Shown piece after piece: positions 20,250-25,811 of a stretch of DNA of 64,000 nucleotides. Position numbers and translations under genes: made by a program. The notes under the pieces are model-generated. The model did not search any database. It saw nothing but the letters and a program-made list of their open reading frames with translations, and was not told where the DNA came from. Origin of the DNA: Limnohabitans sp. WS1 (lineage in GTDB: Bacteria > Pseudomonadota > Gammaproteobacteria > Burkholderiales > Burkholderiaceae_C); the NCBI RefSeq assembly GCF_003063265.1, contig NZ_NERU01000001.1, positions 620,001 through 684,000 of the forward strand. Direction: 5' to 3'. The stretch's first letter is position 1. Every line of letters begins with the position of its first letter.

Positions 20250-21005
20250 ATGCCCCCCACCATGGACGCCAAAACCACCGCCAACCCCAGCCTGTACTTG
20301 TTTGAAAAGTTCGAGGCCGGGGTCATCCACCTGGATGCCCAGCGCAATGTGCTGGCCATGAACGACTTTGCGCGACGGGTCTTGCCGGTGGACGAGAAAC
20401 AACCTTTCAACAAACTGGTCACCTCTTTCCACCCTGAGCGCTCCAAGCCCAAAGTCAATTTTTTGCTCGACGAGGCTTCGGGTTGTCCCATGGCCAATGC
20501 CGTGCCCATGACCATGATCATCAACATCCCCGAACAGGTGTTGCTCATCAAGGTCAGCCGTTTGGGCGATGCCCATGGTGTCACCACTGGTTTTGCCTTG
20601 GTCTTCTACGACGTGACCCAAGTGGTCAGCCAGGAATTGCCCTCCGCTGAGCCCCCCGCCAAAAACATGCGCTTGTCGCGCATCCCGATGGTGGCCGATC
20701 AAAAAGTCTCGTTTGTCGACACCGCCGATGTGCTCAGCCTGGAGTCGCAAGCCCACTACACCCGCGTGCTCACGCGCGAGGGTTACCACTTTTGCAACCT
20801 GAGCATTGGCGATCTGGCGCTGCGCCTGGACCCAGCGCAGTTCATGCGGGTGCACCGCTGCTTCATTGTGAACTTGGATGCTGTGCAATCCTTGGGGCGC
20901 GAGGGCAGCAAAACCCACATCTTGCTCAAAGGCAAAAACACCCAAGCCGTGCCCGTGTCACGCGGCGAAGTCGCCCGCTTGCGCGAGGCACTGGGCCTGA
21001 GCTGA
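20250..21005 (+). CDS. rcoM: CO-sensing regulator RcoM (heme PAS + LytTR)
   Basis: The protein has an N-terminal PAS domain (about 14-125) and a C-terminal LytTR DNA-binding domain (about 145-245; SFVDTADVLSLESQAHYTRV, RVHRCFIVNLDAV). This is the architecture of RcoM, the heme-based CO sensor that activates cox genes. Numbered from the ATG at 20250, His61 (SFHPERSK), Cys79 (ASGCPMAN) and Met89 (VPMTMIIN) line up with the known heme ligands His74, Cys94 and Met104; the Cys-to-Met spacing of 10 is preserved. The start is uncertain (20202 TTG, 20250, 20262). It precedes the cox operon with a REP array in between. Confidence 0.9.
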   Translation: MPPTMDAKTTANPSLYLFEKFEAGVIHLDAQRNVLAMNDFARRVLPVDEKQPFNKLVTSFHPERSKPKVNFLLDEASGCPMANAVPMTMIINIPEQVLLIKVSRLGDAHGVTTGFALVFYDVTQVVSQELPSAEPPAKNMRLSRIPMVADQKVSFVDTADVLSLESQAHYTRVLTREGYHFCNLSIGDLALRLDPAQFMRVHRCFIVNLDAVQSLGREGSKTHILLKGKNTQAVPVSRGEVARLREALGLS

Positions 21006-21017
21006 ACCCCGCCTTTT

Positions 21018-21727
21018 GTGGGGGGCCACAAACTGCAGGCAGCCACCTGTGCGGGGCTCCCACAAACTGCAGGCATCGCCCTGTAGGAGCGACGCCCCCG
21101 TCGCGAAAAGCCTAGCAGACCACGCAGAATCGCCTCGAGGGCGAGGCTCCTACAAACTGCAGGCAGCCACTTGGGCGGGGCACCCACAATTTGCGGACAT
21201 GGCCCTGTAGGAGCGACGCCCTCGTCGCGAAAAGCCTAGCAGACCACGCAGAATCGCCCCGAGGGCGGGGCTCCTACAAACTGCAGGCTGCCACCTGTGC
21301 TGTTCTCCCACAATTTGCGGACATGGCCCTGTAGGAGCGACGCCCCCGTCGCGAAAAGCCTCGCAGACCACGAAGAATCGCCTCGAGGGCGAGGCTCCTA
21401 CAAAGAGCAGGCAGCCACCTGTGCGGGGCTCCCACAATTTGCGGACATGGCCCTTTAGGAGCGACGCCCTCGTCGCGAAAAGCCTCGCAGACCACGAAGA
21501 ATCGCCCAGGGGGCGAGGCTCCTACAAACTGCAGGCAGCCACCTGCGCGAGGCTCCCACAATTTGCGGACATGGCCCTGTAGGAGCGACGCCCTCGTCGC
21601 TAAAAGCCTCGCAGACCACGCAGAATCGCCCCGGGGGCGAGGCTCCTACAAACTGCAGGTAGCCACTTGGGCGGGGCTCCTACAAAGTGCAAGCTGCCAC
21701 CTGGGCTTTGCACCCACAAACTGCAGC
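21018..21727. repeat. REP array 1: five 71-bp elements, 124-bp period
   Basis: Left ends GTAGGAGCGACG occur at 21083, 21207, 21331, 21455 (TTAGG variant) and 21579, always 124 bp apart. Each 71-bp element has outer arms GTAGGAGC and GGCTCCTAC and two inner hairpins (GCGACG/CGTCGC and CGCC/GGCG), so it can fold as a three-way junction. Spacers of 53 bp are also near-identical (AACTGCAGGCAGCCAC, CCCACAATTTGCGGACATGG). Partial spacer copies flank both ends. It occupies most of the 998-bp gap between rcoM and coxM; no gene is present there. Confidence 0.9.
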
Positions 21728-21856
21728 CGCGATGAACCCTTGCAAACCGCCCGTCATTCCCCTTACACCCCCGGGTATTGAGCGTCCAAACCAAGGGTAT
21801 TCACTGGGCTTTGAGGCACCTAGGACATTCCCTGATTGCGAGACCGACAAAGTCTG

Positions 21857-21893
21857 TTCAATTCATTTCGTGCTCAATAAAGTGCATTTCGTG
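21857..21893 (+). promoter_or_regulatory. Phased direct repeats upstream of coxM, candidate RcoM site
   Basis: Hexamers TTCAAT (21857), TTCGTG (21867), ATAAAG (21877) and TTCGTG (21888) start 10, 10 and 11 bp apart, so they lie on one face of the helix. Two fit TTnnnG exactly and two differ at one base. TTnnnG direct repeats are, from memory, the reported recognition pattern of RcoM. The 10-bp string CATTTCGTGC is repeated exactly at a 21-bp distance. The array ends 110 bp before the coxM start. Confidence 0.6.
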
Positions 21894-22003
21894 CAATAAA
21901 TCGGCCATTAAGAGACGAATTTGAATAAAACCTGACTCTTCAGTCGGAAAAGGACTCTCACCAATACTCCGAACTGTTTTTCACAAAACTCAGGAGACCC
22001 TTG

Positions 22004-22867
22004 ATGATTCCACCGCGTTTTGAATACCACGCGCCCAAAACCGTCGGCGAGGCGGTTGCCTTGCTCGGCCAATTGGGCTCTGACGCCAAGTTGCTGGCCG
22101 GCGGCCACAGCCTGTTGCCCATGATGAAGCTGCGTTTTGCAGCCCCCGAACACCTGATCGACATCAACCGCATCCCTGAACTCAAGGGCATCCGCGAAGA
22201 AGGCGGCACCGTGGTGATCGGTGCCATGACGGTCGAAAACGAGCTGATCAGCTCGCCCATCCTGCAAGCCAAAGTGCCTTTGTTGTGCGAAGCGGCCAAG
22301 CTGATTGCCGACCCCCAGGTGCGCAACCGAGGCACGATTGGCGGCGACATCGCCCACGGTGACCCCGGCAACGACCACCCCGCGCTGTCCATCGTGATCG
22401 ACGCGTCCTTTGTGCTCGAAGGCCCCAATGGCCGCCGCACCGTGGCCGCCGACGGTTTTTTCCTCGGCACCTACATGACGCTGCTCGAAGAAAACGAAGT
22501 CATGTGCGAGATCCGCGTGCCTGCCTTTGCCGCTGGCACTGGTTACGCCTACGAAAAACTCAAGCGCAAAACCGGTGACTGGGCGACAGCCGGTTGCGCG
22601 GTGGTGATCCGCAAGTCGGGTGACCAGGTCAGCCATGTGCGTGTGGCCCTGACCAACGTGGCCCCGGCCGCGCTGCGTGTCGAAGCCGCCGAAGCCGCTT
22701 TGCTGAACAAGCCCTTCAACGCCGCCAACGTGCAAGCCGCCGTGCAAGCCGCCATCGCCGCCTGCGACCCTGCCGAAGACCTGCGCGGTGACATCGAATA
22801 CAAGACCGCCATGGCCGGTGAGATGGTCAAACGCGCCCTGAACAAAGCCTGGTCGCGCTGCGCTTAA
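22004..22867 (+). CDS. coxM: CO dehydrogenase medium (FAD) subunit
   Basis: This 287-residue flavoprotein subunit passes electrons from the iron-sulfur subunit to quinone. The two FAD-pyrophosphate motifs of the family are visible: [14 protein letters not shown] near residues 30-43 and [20 protein letters not shown] in the middle. AGGAGA precedes the ATG at 22004. It is first in the order coxM-coxS-coxL, the order of form I CO dehydrogenases. Confidence 0.96.
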
Positions 22868-22884: not shown

Positions 22885-23370
22885 ATGTCCAAAAAACTCG
22901 TCACCGTTTCCGTCAATGGCAAAAAAGAAGAAAAAGCCGTTGAACCACGCACCTTGCTGATCCACTTTTTGCGCGAAGAACTCAACCTGACCGGCGCCCA
23001 TATCGGCTGCGAGACCAGCCACTGCGGCGCTTGCACCGTGGACATCGACGGCCAATCGGTCAAGTCTTGCACCCACCTGGCGGTGCAGTGCGACGGCTCC
23101 GAAGTGCTGACTGTCGAAGGCCTGGCCAACAAAGGCGTGTTGCACGCGGTGCAAGAAGGCTTCTACAAAGAACACGGCCTGCAGTGCGGCTTTTGCACGC
23201 CCGGCATGCTCATGCGTGCCTACCGCTTCTTGCAAGAGAACCCCAACCCGAGCGAAGACGAAATTCGCCACGGCATGGCCGGCAACCTGTGCCGCTGCAC
23301 GGGCTACCAAAACATCGTCAAAGCCGTCCAGTACGCCGCCAAAAAACTGCAAGAGCCCGTTGCGGCTTGA
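22885..23370 (+). CDS. coxS: CO dehydrogenase small [2Fe-2S] subunit
   Basis: This 161-residue electron-transfer subunit carries two [2Fe-2S] clusters. The plant-ferredoxin-type cluster is held by [12 protein letters not shown] with a downstream Cys, and the proximal cluster by [10 protein letters not shown] and CRCTGYQN. It lacks a signal peptide, consistent with assembly in the cytoplasm on the inner face of the membrane. It lies 17 bp after coxM. Confidence 0.97.
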
Positions 23371-23399: not shown

Positions 23400-25811
23400 A
23401 TGAACGCACCGGTACAAACCGCTGAAGCCCGCGAACTCGCGCTGGCTGGCATGGGCGCATCGCGCCTGCGCAAAGAAGACGCCCGTTTCATCCAGGGCAA
23501 GGGCAACTACGTTGACGACATCAAGATGCCCGGCATGTTGCACATGGACATCGTGCGCAGCCCCATCGCCCACGGCCGCATCGTCAAAATCAACAAAGAA
23601 GCCGCCCTGGCCATCCCCGGCGTGCACGCCGTGCTGACTGCCGACGACTTGAAGCCCCTGAAGCTGCACTGGATGCCCACCCTCGCGGGTGACGTGGCCG
23701 CTGTGCTGGCCGACGAGAAGGTGCACTTCCAGATGCAGGAAGTCGCCATCGTCATCGCTGACGACCGCTACATCGCCGCTGACGCGGTGGAAGCCGTCGA
23801 GATCGAATACGAAGAGCTGCCCGTGGTGCTCGACCCGTATGCCGCCTTGCAGCCCGGCGCCCCCGTGATCCGTGACGATTTGGCTGGCAAGACGGAAGGC
23901 GCACACGGCAAGCGTGACCACCACAACCACATCTTCACGTGGGATGCCGGTGACAAGTCGGCTGCTGACGCCGCTTTTGACAAAGCCGAAGTGACCGTGT
24001 CGCAGCACATGTACTACCCCCGCGTGCACCCTTGCCCGCTGGAGACCTGCGGCTGCGTCGCTTCCTTCGACCCGATCAAGGGCGACCTGACCACCTTCAT
24101 CACCTCGCAAGCCCCCCATGTGGTGCGCACCGTGGTGTCCATGCTCTCGGGCATCCCCGAATCCAAAGTGCGCATCGTCAGCCCCGACATCGGTGGCGGC
24201 TTTGGCAACAAGGTCGGCATCTACCCCGGTTATGTCTGCGCCATCGTGGCCTCCATCGTGCTGGGCCGCCCCGTCAAGTGGGTCGAAGACCGCATCGAAA
24301 ACATCTCGTCCACCGCCTTCGCCCGTGACTACCACATGGACGGCGAATTGGCTGCGACGGCCGACGGCAAGATCACCGGCCTGCGCGTGAACGTGGTGGC
24401 CGACCACGGCGCGTTTGACGCTTGTGCCGACCCGACCAAGTTCCCTGCCGGCATGTTCCACATCGTCTCAGGCTCGTATGACATTCCAGCTGCACACGCC
24501 AGCGTCAAAGGCGTCTACACCAACAAGGCCCCCGGTGGCGTGGCTTACCGCTGCTCCTTCCGCGTGACCGAAGCGGTGTACCTGATCGAGCGCATGGTCG
24601 ACGTGCTGGCGCAAAAGCTGGGCATGGACAAGGCCGAGATCCGCGCCAAGAACTTCGTCAAGAAAGAACAGTTCCCCTACACCAGCGCCTTCGGTTTTGA
24701 ATACGACTCGGGCGACTACCAAACCGCTTTGGACAAAGTGCTGGAAGCCGTGGACTACAAAGGTCTGCGTGCCGAGCAAGCAGCCAAACGCGCTGACCCC
24801 AACAGCCCCACGCTGATGGGCATTGGCCTGGTCACCTTCACCGAAGTGGTGGGTGCTGGCCCGTCCAAGATGTGCGACATCCTGGGCGTGGGCATGTTCG
24901 ACTCCTGCGAAATCCGCATCCACCCCACCGGCAGCGCCATCGCCCGCATGGGCACGATCACGCAAGGCCAAGGCCACCAGACCACCTACGCGCAGATCAT
25001 CGCCACCGAGTTGGGTATTCCGTCTGAAGTGATTCAGGTCGAAGAAGGCGATACCAGCACCGCGCCCTACGGCTTGGGCACCTACGGTTCACGCTCCACG
25101 CCTGTGGCCGGTGCCGCCATTGCTTTGGCTGCTCGCAAGATTCACGCAAAGGCCCGCAAGATCGCCGCCCACATGCTCGAAGTCAACGAAAACGACCTCG
25201 ACTGGGAAGTGGACCGCTTCAAGGTCAAGGGCGACGACAGCAAGTACAAAACCATGGCCGATGTGGCATGGCAGGCTTACCACCAGCCACCAGATGGCTT
25301 GGAGCCAGGCCTGGAAGCCGTGCACTACTACGACCCACCGAACTTCACCTTCCCCTTCGGCATCTACCTGTGCGTGGTGGACATCGACCGCGCCACGGGC
25401 GAGACCAAAATCCGCCGCTTCTATGCGCTGGACGACTGCGGCACCCGCATCAACCCGATGATCATCGACGGCCAGATCCACGGCGGTCTGACCGAAGGTT
25501 TTGCCGTGGCCATGGGCCAGCAAATGCCATTCGATGCACAGGGCAACTTGCTGGGCAACACGCTGATGGACTACTTCTTGCCCACCTTCGTGGAAACCCC
25601 GCACTGGGAAACCGACCACACCGTGACCCCTTCGCCACACCACCCTCTGGGTGCCAAGGGCGTCGCCGAATCGCCCCACGTCGGCTCGATCCCCACCTTC
25701 ACTTCGGCTGTGGTCGATGCCTTCTCGCACCTGGGTGTCACGCACCTGGACATGCCGCACAACGCTTTCCGCACCTGGAAAGCGCTGCGCGAGCACGGCG
25801 CCGCTTTGTAA
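23400..25811 (+). CDS. coxL: Form I aerobic CO dehydrogenase large (Mo-Cu) subunit
   Basis: This 803-residue catalytic subunit oxidises CO with water to CO2, two protons and two electrons at a Mo-S-Cu site. The form I signature AYRCSFR is present with the copper-binding Cys at residue 385 (388 in Oligotropha CoxL). This separates true CO dehydrogenases from form II proteins, which carry AYRGAGR. The catalytic Glu is residue 757 in GVAESPHVG. QGQGHQTTYAQI is the cofactor-binding loop. The start at 23400 gives the usual N-terminus with SRLRKEDARFIQGKGNYVDD. Confidence 0.98.
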   Translation: MNAPVQTAEARELALAGMGASRLRKEDARFIQGKGNYVDDIKMPGMLHMDIVRSPIAHGRIVKINKEAALAIPGVHAVLTADDLKPLKLHWMPTLAGDVAAVLADEKVHFQMQEVAIVIADDRYIAADAVEAVEIEYEELPVVLDPYAALQPGAPVIRDDLAGKTEGAHGKRDHHNHIFTWDAGDKSAADAAFDKAEVTVSQHMYYPRVHPCPLETCGCVASFDPIKGDLTTFITSQAPHVVRTVVSMLSGIPESKVRIVSPDIGGGFGNKVGIYPGYVCAIVASIVLGRPVKWVEDRIENISSTAFARDYHMDGELAATADGKITGLRVNVVADHGAFDACADPTKFPAGMFHIVSGSYDIPAAHASVKGVYTNKAPGGVAYRCSFRVTEAVYLIERMVDVLAQKLGMDKAEIRAKNFVKKEQFPYTSAFGFEYDSGDYQTALDKVLEAVDYKGLRAEQAAKRADPNSPTLMGIGLVTFTEVVGAGPSKMCDILGVGMFDSCEIRIHPTGSAIARMGTITQGQGHQTTYAQIIATELGIPSEVIQVEEGDTSTAPYGLGTYGSRSTPVAGAAIALAARKIHAKARKIAAHMLEVNENDLDWEVDRFKVKGDDSKYKTMADVAWQAYHQPPDGLEPGLEAVHYYDPPNFTFPFGIYLCVVDIDRATGETKIRRFYALDDCGTRINPMIIDGQIHGGLTEGFAVAMGQQMPFDAQGNLLGNTLMDYFLPTFVETPHWETDHTVTPSPHHPLGAKGVAESPHVGSIPTFTSAVVDAFSHLGVTHLDMPHNAFRTWKALREHGAAL

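Follow-up and report, generated by a model that had tools for sequence, protein, structure and literature searches.

A putative two-site RcoM operator upstream of the coxMSL genes in a Limnohabitans-like genome

The window, by which we mean the whole 64-kb stretch of DNA under analysis, belongs to a genome that is nearest, judging from its named relatives, to Limnohabitans. It contains an rcoM-like gene followed by coxM, coxS and coxL (Table 1) and, downstream of coxMSL, by CoxG-, AAA ATPase-, CoxE- and XdhC/CoxI-type genes. CoxL carries the sequence AYRCSFR, which we take to be the form I motif. The order rcoM then coxM, on the same strand, is found in the window and in 80/80 further loci (the best 80 of 121 relatives). 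The gap between the two genes is 1001 bp in the window versus 193–720 bp in these 80 relatives, and about 860 bp separate the end of rcoM from the first site described below, P1. Between rcoM and the putative operator, a 124-bp unit is repeated in tandem 5.3 times (21028–21685).

The C-terminal domain of the rcoM-like protein is a LytTR domain (Pfam LytTR, 2.7e-18), and AgrA is among the LytTR structures matched by the AlphaFold model. The N-terminal domain has a PAS fold according to Foldseek, whose matches to PAS domains include heme PAS; the Pfam PAS_4 match is below its cut-off, and the model has a mean pLDDT of 76, lower in parts of the PAS domain. Residues H57, C75 and M85, which presumably correspond to His74, Cys94 and Met104 of RcoM-1, are present in 86/86 sequences. 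Since the model matches both PAS and LytTR domains and these three residues are kept, we consider that the regulator is probably RcoM, and we refer to it as such.

Table 1. Genes and candidate promoter elements, numbered from the first base of the window.
Feature	Position	Strand	Description
rcoM-like gene	20262–21005	+	N-terminal PAS, C-terminal LytTR
E1	21822–21838	+	AGGACATTCCCTGATTG; WWCCC at a near-fixed distance from the anchor site in 58/81 loci; related element before ccmA
TGATC-like block	21855–21859	+	TGTTC in the window; 12 bp upstream of P1; 0.84–1.48 bits/column (36 gapless promoters)
Site P1	21864–21873	+	CATTTCGTGC; core TTCGTGC 21867–21873; TTnnnG exact in 33/36 gapless promoters
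Site P2	21885–21894	+	CATTTCGTGC; TTnnnG exact in 35/36 gapless promoters; 75 bp upstream of −10
Third slot P3	21906–21916	+	CATTAAGAGAC; degenerate
Predicted −10	21963–21968	+	AATACT; 0.84–1.71 bits/column, third base 0.54, in promoters preselected for a −10 match
coxM	22004–22867	+	FAD_binding_5, CO_deh_flav_C; ribosome-binding-like AGGAG 21992–21996
coxS	22885–23370	+	Fer2/Fer2_2
coxL	23400–25811	+	CO dehydrogenase large-subunit model TIGR02416, score 1558 versus cut-off 991; AYRCSFR motif

Upstream of coxM, P1 and P2 form a perfect 10-bp direct repeat, 21 bp from start to start. No 10-mer repeated at 20–22 bp was obtained in 2000 shuffles of the upstream region. The operator of RcoM1 from Paraburkholderia xenovorans LB400 is described in PMC11347149 as a triplet of TTCNNGCA with 12–13 bp spacers. 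P2 (TTCGTGCA, 21888–21895) agrees with this motif at 6/6 positions and P1 (TTCGTGCT, 21867–21874) at 5/6, with a spacer of 13 bp; a TTCNNGCA doublet scoring at least 11/12 arises in 0.25% of 2000 shuffles. The pair also has the format of LytTR sites in general, which PMC4847170 gives as repeats of 9–11 bp with 11–13 bp between them: here the repeats are 10 bp long and the gap is 11 bp. The rest of the window contains two more TTCNNGCA doublets of at least 11/12, on the minus strand and within long reading frames, and two other 10-mer repeats, 22 bp apart and of unrelated sequence. The whole genome has three matches to a TTCRTGC doublet, of which the other two are inside long reading frames and recur in congeners devoid of rcoM.

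The upstream regions of related genes were then compared. We collected 110 loci; the counts leave out L001–L022, which are from the same genus and apparently largely from the same genomes, and L023–L030, whose LytTR matches are weak. The best 80 of the 121 relatives (L031–L110) and the window make up the 81 rcoM–coxM loci counted, which share ancestry, so that the counts are not independent. Column statistics are from 36/81 promoters that align without gaps from P1 to the −10; to be included, a promoter needed a doublet scoring 9/12 or more and, 75 bp further on, a match to the −10. Because these 36 promoters were preselected for the doublet and the −10, the contrast with other positions outweighs the high counts at the sites themselves.

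This comparison bears on the arrangement proposed in the earlier note, which had read the region as a candidate RcoM operator of four TTnnnG-like hexamers, one helical turn apart and on one face of the helix, an array that would extend the published triplet. The hexamers do begin where it was said, TTCAAT at 21857, TTCGTG at 21867, ATAAAG at 21877 and TTCGTG at 21888, in steps of 10, 10 and 11 bp. However, a quartet of this kind (steps of 10–11 bp, each hexamer with at least two of the three letters of TT...G, at least two hexamers exact) is not rare: when 21717–22003 was shuffled 2000 times with dinucleotides preserved, 2.5% of the shuffles had one on the plus strand and 18% on either strand, and there are 44 across the 64-kb window, both strands included. 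In the alignment, the second and fourth hexamers, which belong to P1 and P2, are kept (TTnnnG exact in 33/36 and 35/36), whereas the first and third are exact in 1/36 and 0/36; at 21909 the count is 5. The first hexamer lies partly on other conserved columns, but their consensus, TGATC (TGTTC at 21855–21859 in the window), has letters unlike TTnnnG; an exact GATC is found at −11 from the first site in 29/81 loci.

The spacing of the sites leads to the same conclusion. Among the pairs of strong sites in the 81 loci, 56 have a spacing of 21 bp and 13 one of 20 bp, while none is spaced by 10 or 11 bp, which makes 21 bp the unit. An exact TTnnnG one turn off occurs between the two sites in 0 of the 63 strong doublets, before them in 1 and after them in 2. 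The shuffles, the column counts and the pair spacing are thus all against the four-hexamer array, which we reject as very improbable: as far as these comparisons tell, neither the signal nor the logic of the operator lies in four consecutive hexamers. Since 21 bp amounts to two helical turns, the two repeats would be on one face. A strong doublet is present in 63/81 loci and a strong triplet in 6; 18/81 have no strong doublet, including 4 that do not even have a TTnnnG doublet at 20–21 bp. A control on the minus strand has peaks of its own (13 pairs at 21 bp, 13 at 55 bp), which indicates that shared ancestry inflates the pair counts. By eye, no convincing extra site is seen 21 bp before P1 in the genus of the window. 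The plasmid-borne RcoM–cox loci of Caballeronia and Paraburkholderia (P. aromaticivorans) have best triplets of 15–17/18, spaced 21/21 or 21/20, values given without a null test.

Common ancestry and synteny of the loci could also mean that the repeat is merely inherited and has no function. The retention of its columns makes this hardly credible: in the diverged promoters L051, L052 and L053 the site columns are kept at 0.95, 0.90 and 0.95, against 0.56, 0.51 and 0.70 for the other conserved columns. More generally, 26 rcoM-bearing promoters retain 80–100% of the site columns, including four in which the other conserved columns are at 51–70%.

Genomes without rcoM provide a further comparison. 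The genus was covered by 90 genomes: 25 have coxM (E ≤1e-80) and 22 have close rcoM matches, all of these within the 25. G032, whose coxM is at a contig end, has no close rcoM match and was excluded as a cox control. In G018 and G072, whose CoxM are 93% and 95% identical to that of the window and in which no rcoM was found, the pair is absent, the best doublets scoring 8/12 and 9/12. In G072, E1 is largely preserved and so is the −10, at the 133-bp distance seen in the window, and the best repeat remnant (13/20) sits exactly at the position of P1. It would be tempting to see here a proof of the selective loss of RcoM sites, an idea that we rejected: the lower retention of the site columns, relative to the other conserved columns, does not reach significance in G072 (13/20 vs 49/71, Fisher test, p = 0.79) or in G018 (5/20 vs 27/71, p = 0.43), so that these two genomes count only as cases where the pair is absent. 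In L155 and L158, which have coxM and no nearby rcoM match, the best doublet is 9/12, versus 10, 10 and 11 of 12 in L156, L157 and L159, which have rcoM; the contrast is therefore small when rcoM-less loci are set against distant loci that have rcoM. The array of L159 is located 270–290 bp before coxM.

The other proposal of the earlier note, that an RcoM-type operator lies upstream of coxM, is very likely correct, considering the adjoining rcoM-like gene, the two motif matches and the conservation of the sites where rcoM is present. Among the coxM loci examined, four have no nearby rcoM match, and the pair was found in none of these, which adds to the case.

Another LytTR regulator, AlgR- or YpdB-like, might bind the pair instead of RcoM. 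The genome indeed encodes a second, weaker LytTR match, and the motif of AlgR is similar to the pair. The same is true of the site of YpdB at PyhjX of E. coli, which consists of two direct repeats of GGCATTTCAT, close to CATTTCGTGC, and 21 bp apart if one counts on the oligonucleotide printed in PMC4847170; the general LytTR format mentioned above fits such a regulator as well. YpdB differs from the regulator of the window in that it is a two-component response regulator that answers a different signal. The pair, on the contrary, goes with rcoM in most loci and is missing from the four just mentioned, in which coxM has no rcoM match nearby. These loci are a weak test of this alternative, since no LytTR match is seen in G072 but another one persists in G018. 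We consider binding by another LytTR protein improbable, although less so than either a four-hexamer array or a functionless repeat, and RcoM remains our preferred candidate.

The position of the pair relative to the promoter is the next feature to consider. Distances to the −10 could be obtained in 60/81 loci, 21 giving no −10 candidate under the first rule. In 43 of these 60 loci, 74–76 bp separate the second site of the doublet from the −10; the other distances are 55 bp (12 loci), 64 bp (3 loci), 85 bp and 23 bp (1 locus each). The distance between the −10 and the ATG varies, while that between the doublet and the −10 mostly holds. A wider −10 rule, applied post hoc to some of the remaining loci, gives distances of about 64/85/105 or 55/75/96 in several additional cases. 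In the 55-bp group, the doublet mostly fills the equivalents of the second and third slots of the window. These observations suggest a common layout in which three slots lie roughly 96, 75 and 54 bp upstream of the −10 and would be filled differently depending on the lineage. No good −35 candidate was seen by eye, and Rfam gives zero matches within the window for an RNA element in the leader.

In the window, the third of these slots, P3, is degenerate. Its mean score over 25 Limnohabitans-like promoters is 1.52 of 6, for a background of 1.40 (rank 51/118 offsets), and 2.91 of 6 in 11 promoters from other genera. The three repeats of the published RcoM operator are therefore not found here, the third slot being at the background of the genus, and the idea that the window extends the published triplet does not hold. 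Since the third slot is degenerate, we class the operator as a two-site variant.

It may be, nevertheless, that a full triplet is occupied, the weak promoter-proximal site (21906–21916) being filled through cooperativity. The operators of RcoM1 and CoxC are both triplets according to PMC11347149, and CoxC required all three sites. The slot is moreover filled in some relatives (TTGATGC in L056, L057 and L069), and in the genus of the window the C at −3 and the G at +5 of the slot are often kept, by eye. The background-level score over the Limnohabitans-like promoters argues against it, and occupancy of the three slots in the window seems to us possible but rather unlikely. We retain the two-site operator.

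Another element, E1 (CCCTGATTG), is located upstream of the sites. Its WWCCC precedes the first, or anchor, site by 37–39 bp in 58/81 loci and by 57–59 bp in 11 more; 12/81 have it at neither offset. The exact 17-base pattern, AGGRNWTWCCCKGATTG, occurs only once in the genome of the window, and a looser form occurs twice, the second time before a CcmA gene (G000:C48:92821-92835, in L168). The exact pattern is present in 18/90 genomes of the genus, of which 16 have rcoM; the two rcoM-less matches are before a CcmA-like gene (G040) and inside a coding frame (G047). It is missing from 6/22 rcoM-bearing genomes.

A search for ccmA matched 47/60 genomes, 30 of which gave loci; 29 were analysed, L192 ending at a contig edge. 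CCCTGATT is present in 21/23 ccmA loci of the genus (the group with 76–100% identity), and E1 begins at −102 to −104 there, while six more distant ccmA loci have no E1 at this position. The ccmA-linked E1 is found in 9/10 genomes with rcoM and in 12/13 without a close rcoM match. Since E1 precedes ccmA in rcoM-less genomes too, it seems to serve a factor other than RcoM and is probably bound by a second regulator. A reading of E1 as a sigma-54 element was rejected, its spacing being unsuitable by eye. The comparison points to an element common to the cox and ccmA promoters. More speculatively, the cox promoter could be a rigid two-input device, in which E1, 37–39 bp upstream of the array, would be bound by an RcoM-independent regulator that also drives ccmA, thus tying CO oxidation to cytochrome c maturation; the near-fixed geometry from E1 to the array and to the −10 would reflect one joint complex, and the RcoM pair would suffice because E1 is occupied. 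We regard this idea as possible but not likely. In the Rubrivivax-like loci L095, L098, L103 and L104, GC-rich inverted repeats are seen by eye between a TTTCCC element and the first site.

The reading that we favor, with a probability of roughly 0.84 based on sequence comparison, is that the coxMSL promoter carries a two-site operator for the CO sensor RcoM. At the published triplet, RcoM binds cooperatively and in a CO-dependent way. In the window, the binding of CO to the heme of RcoM would place the LytTR domains on the two CATTTCGTGC direct repeats, at positions near −105 and −84 (site centres) relative to the predicted start. RcoM would then activate from upstream a promoter that has a conserved −10. 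The third slot, at about −63, would be the promoter-proximal one; it carries a site in the published triplet, as it does in several relatives, but may be dispensable in the genus of the window, perhaps because of E1, an element that stands at a near-fixed distance and that a second factor probably recognises.

In terms of known systems, the operator proposed here resembles that of RcoM1, from what is given in passages of PMC11347149: direct repeats of TTCNNGCA, spacers of 12–13 bp, cox genes and an RcoM protein. It differs from it in having two strong sites and a degenerate third one, instead of three sites, and E1 is not mentioned for the RcoM1 operator in those passages. CoxC of Afipia carboxidovorans OM5, described in the same source, is also a LytTR protein on direct repeats at a cox promoter, with a triplet of TTNNNGCN spaced by 18–21 bp at PcoxB. 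But CoxC is a membrane-bound MHYT repressor that overlaps the −35, whereas the window has a PAS–LytTR protein and far-upstream sites, which would fit an activator. Like the AgrA sites of agr P2/P3 in Staphylococcus aureus, where a LytTR dimer occupies two direct repeats upstream of the promoters, the window has a repeated pair; the proximal repeats of AgrA are centred at about −60 according to PMC4227749, and the strong pair of the window is predicted to be one 21-bp step further upstream, at about −84/−105.

In the literature covered (titles and beginnings of abstracts, plus part of PMC11771112), no paper on an RcoM operator from Limnohabitans or the Comamonadaceae was found, and the RcoM operator is characterised for one species, as a triplet. 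The related promoters examined here combine near-fixed features, the 21-bp register and the distance to the −10, with a third site that can be dispensed with. Since the register is held while the third site is let go, natural promoters lend themselves to testing the influence of the number of sites and of their position in the promoter. The pair may also provide a simple handle for predicting CO-responsive promoters in freshwater Limnohabitans and relatives.

Last, we note that in L074, L075, L076, L079 and L084, whose doublets are 55 bp from the −10, the sequence TTATTGATAAAGTGCAA is conserved between the last site and the −10; it is reminiscent of an IHF site.
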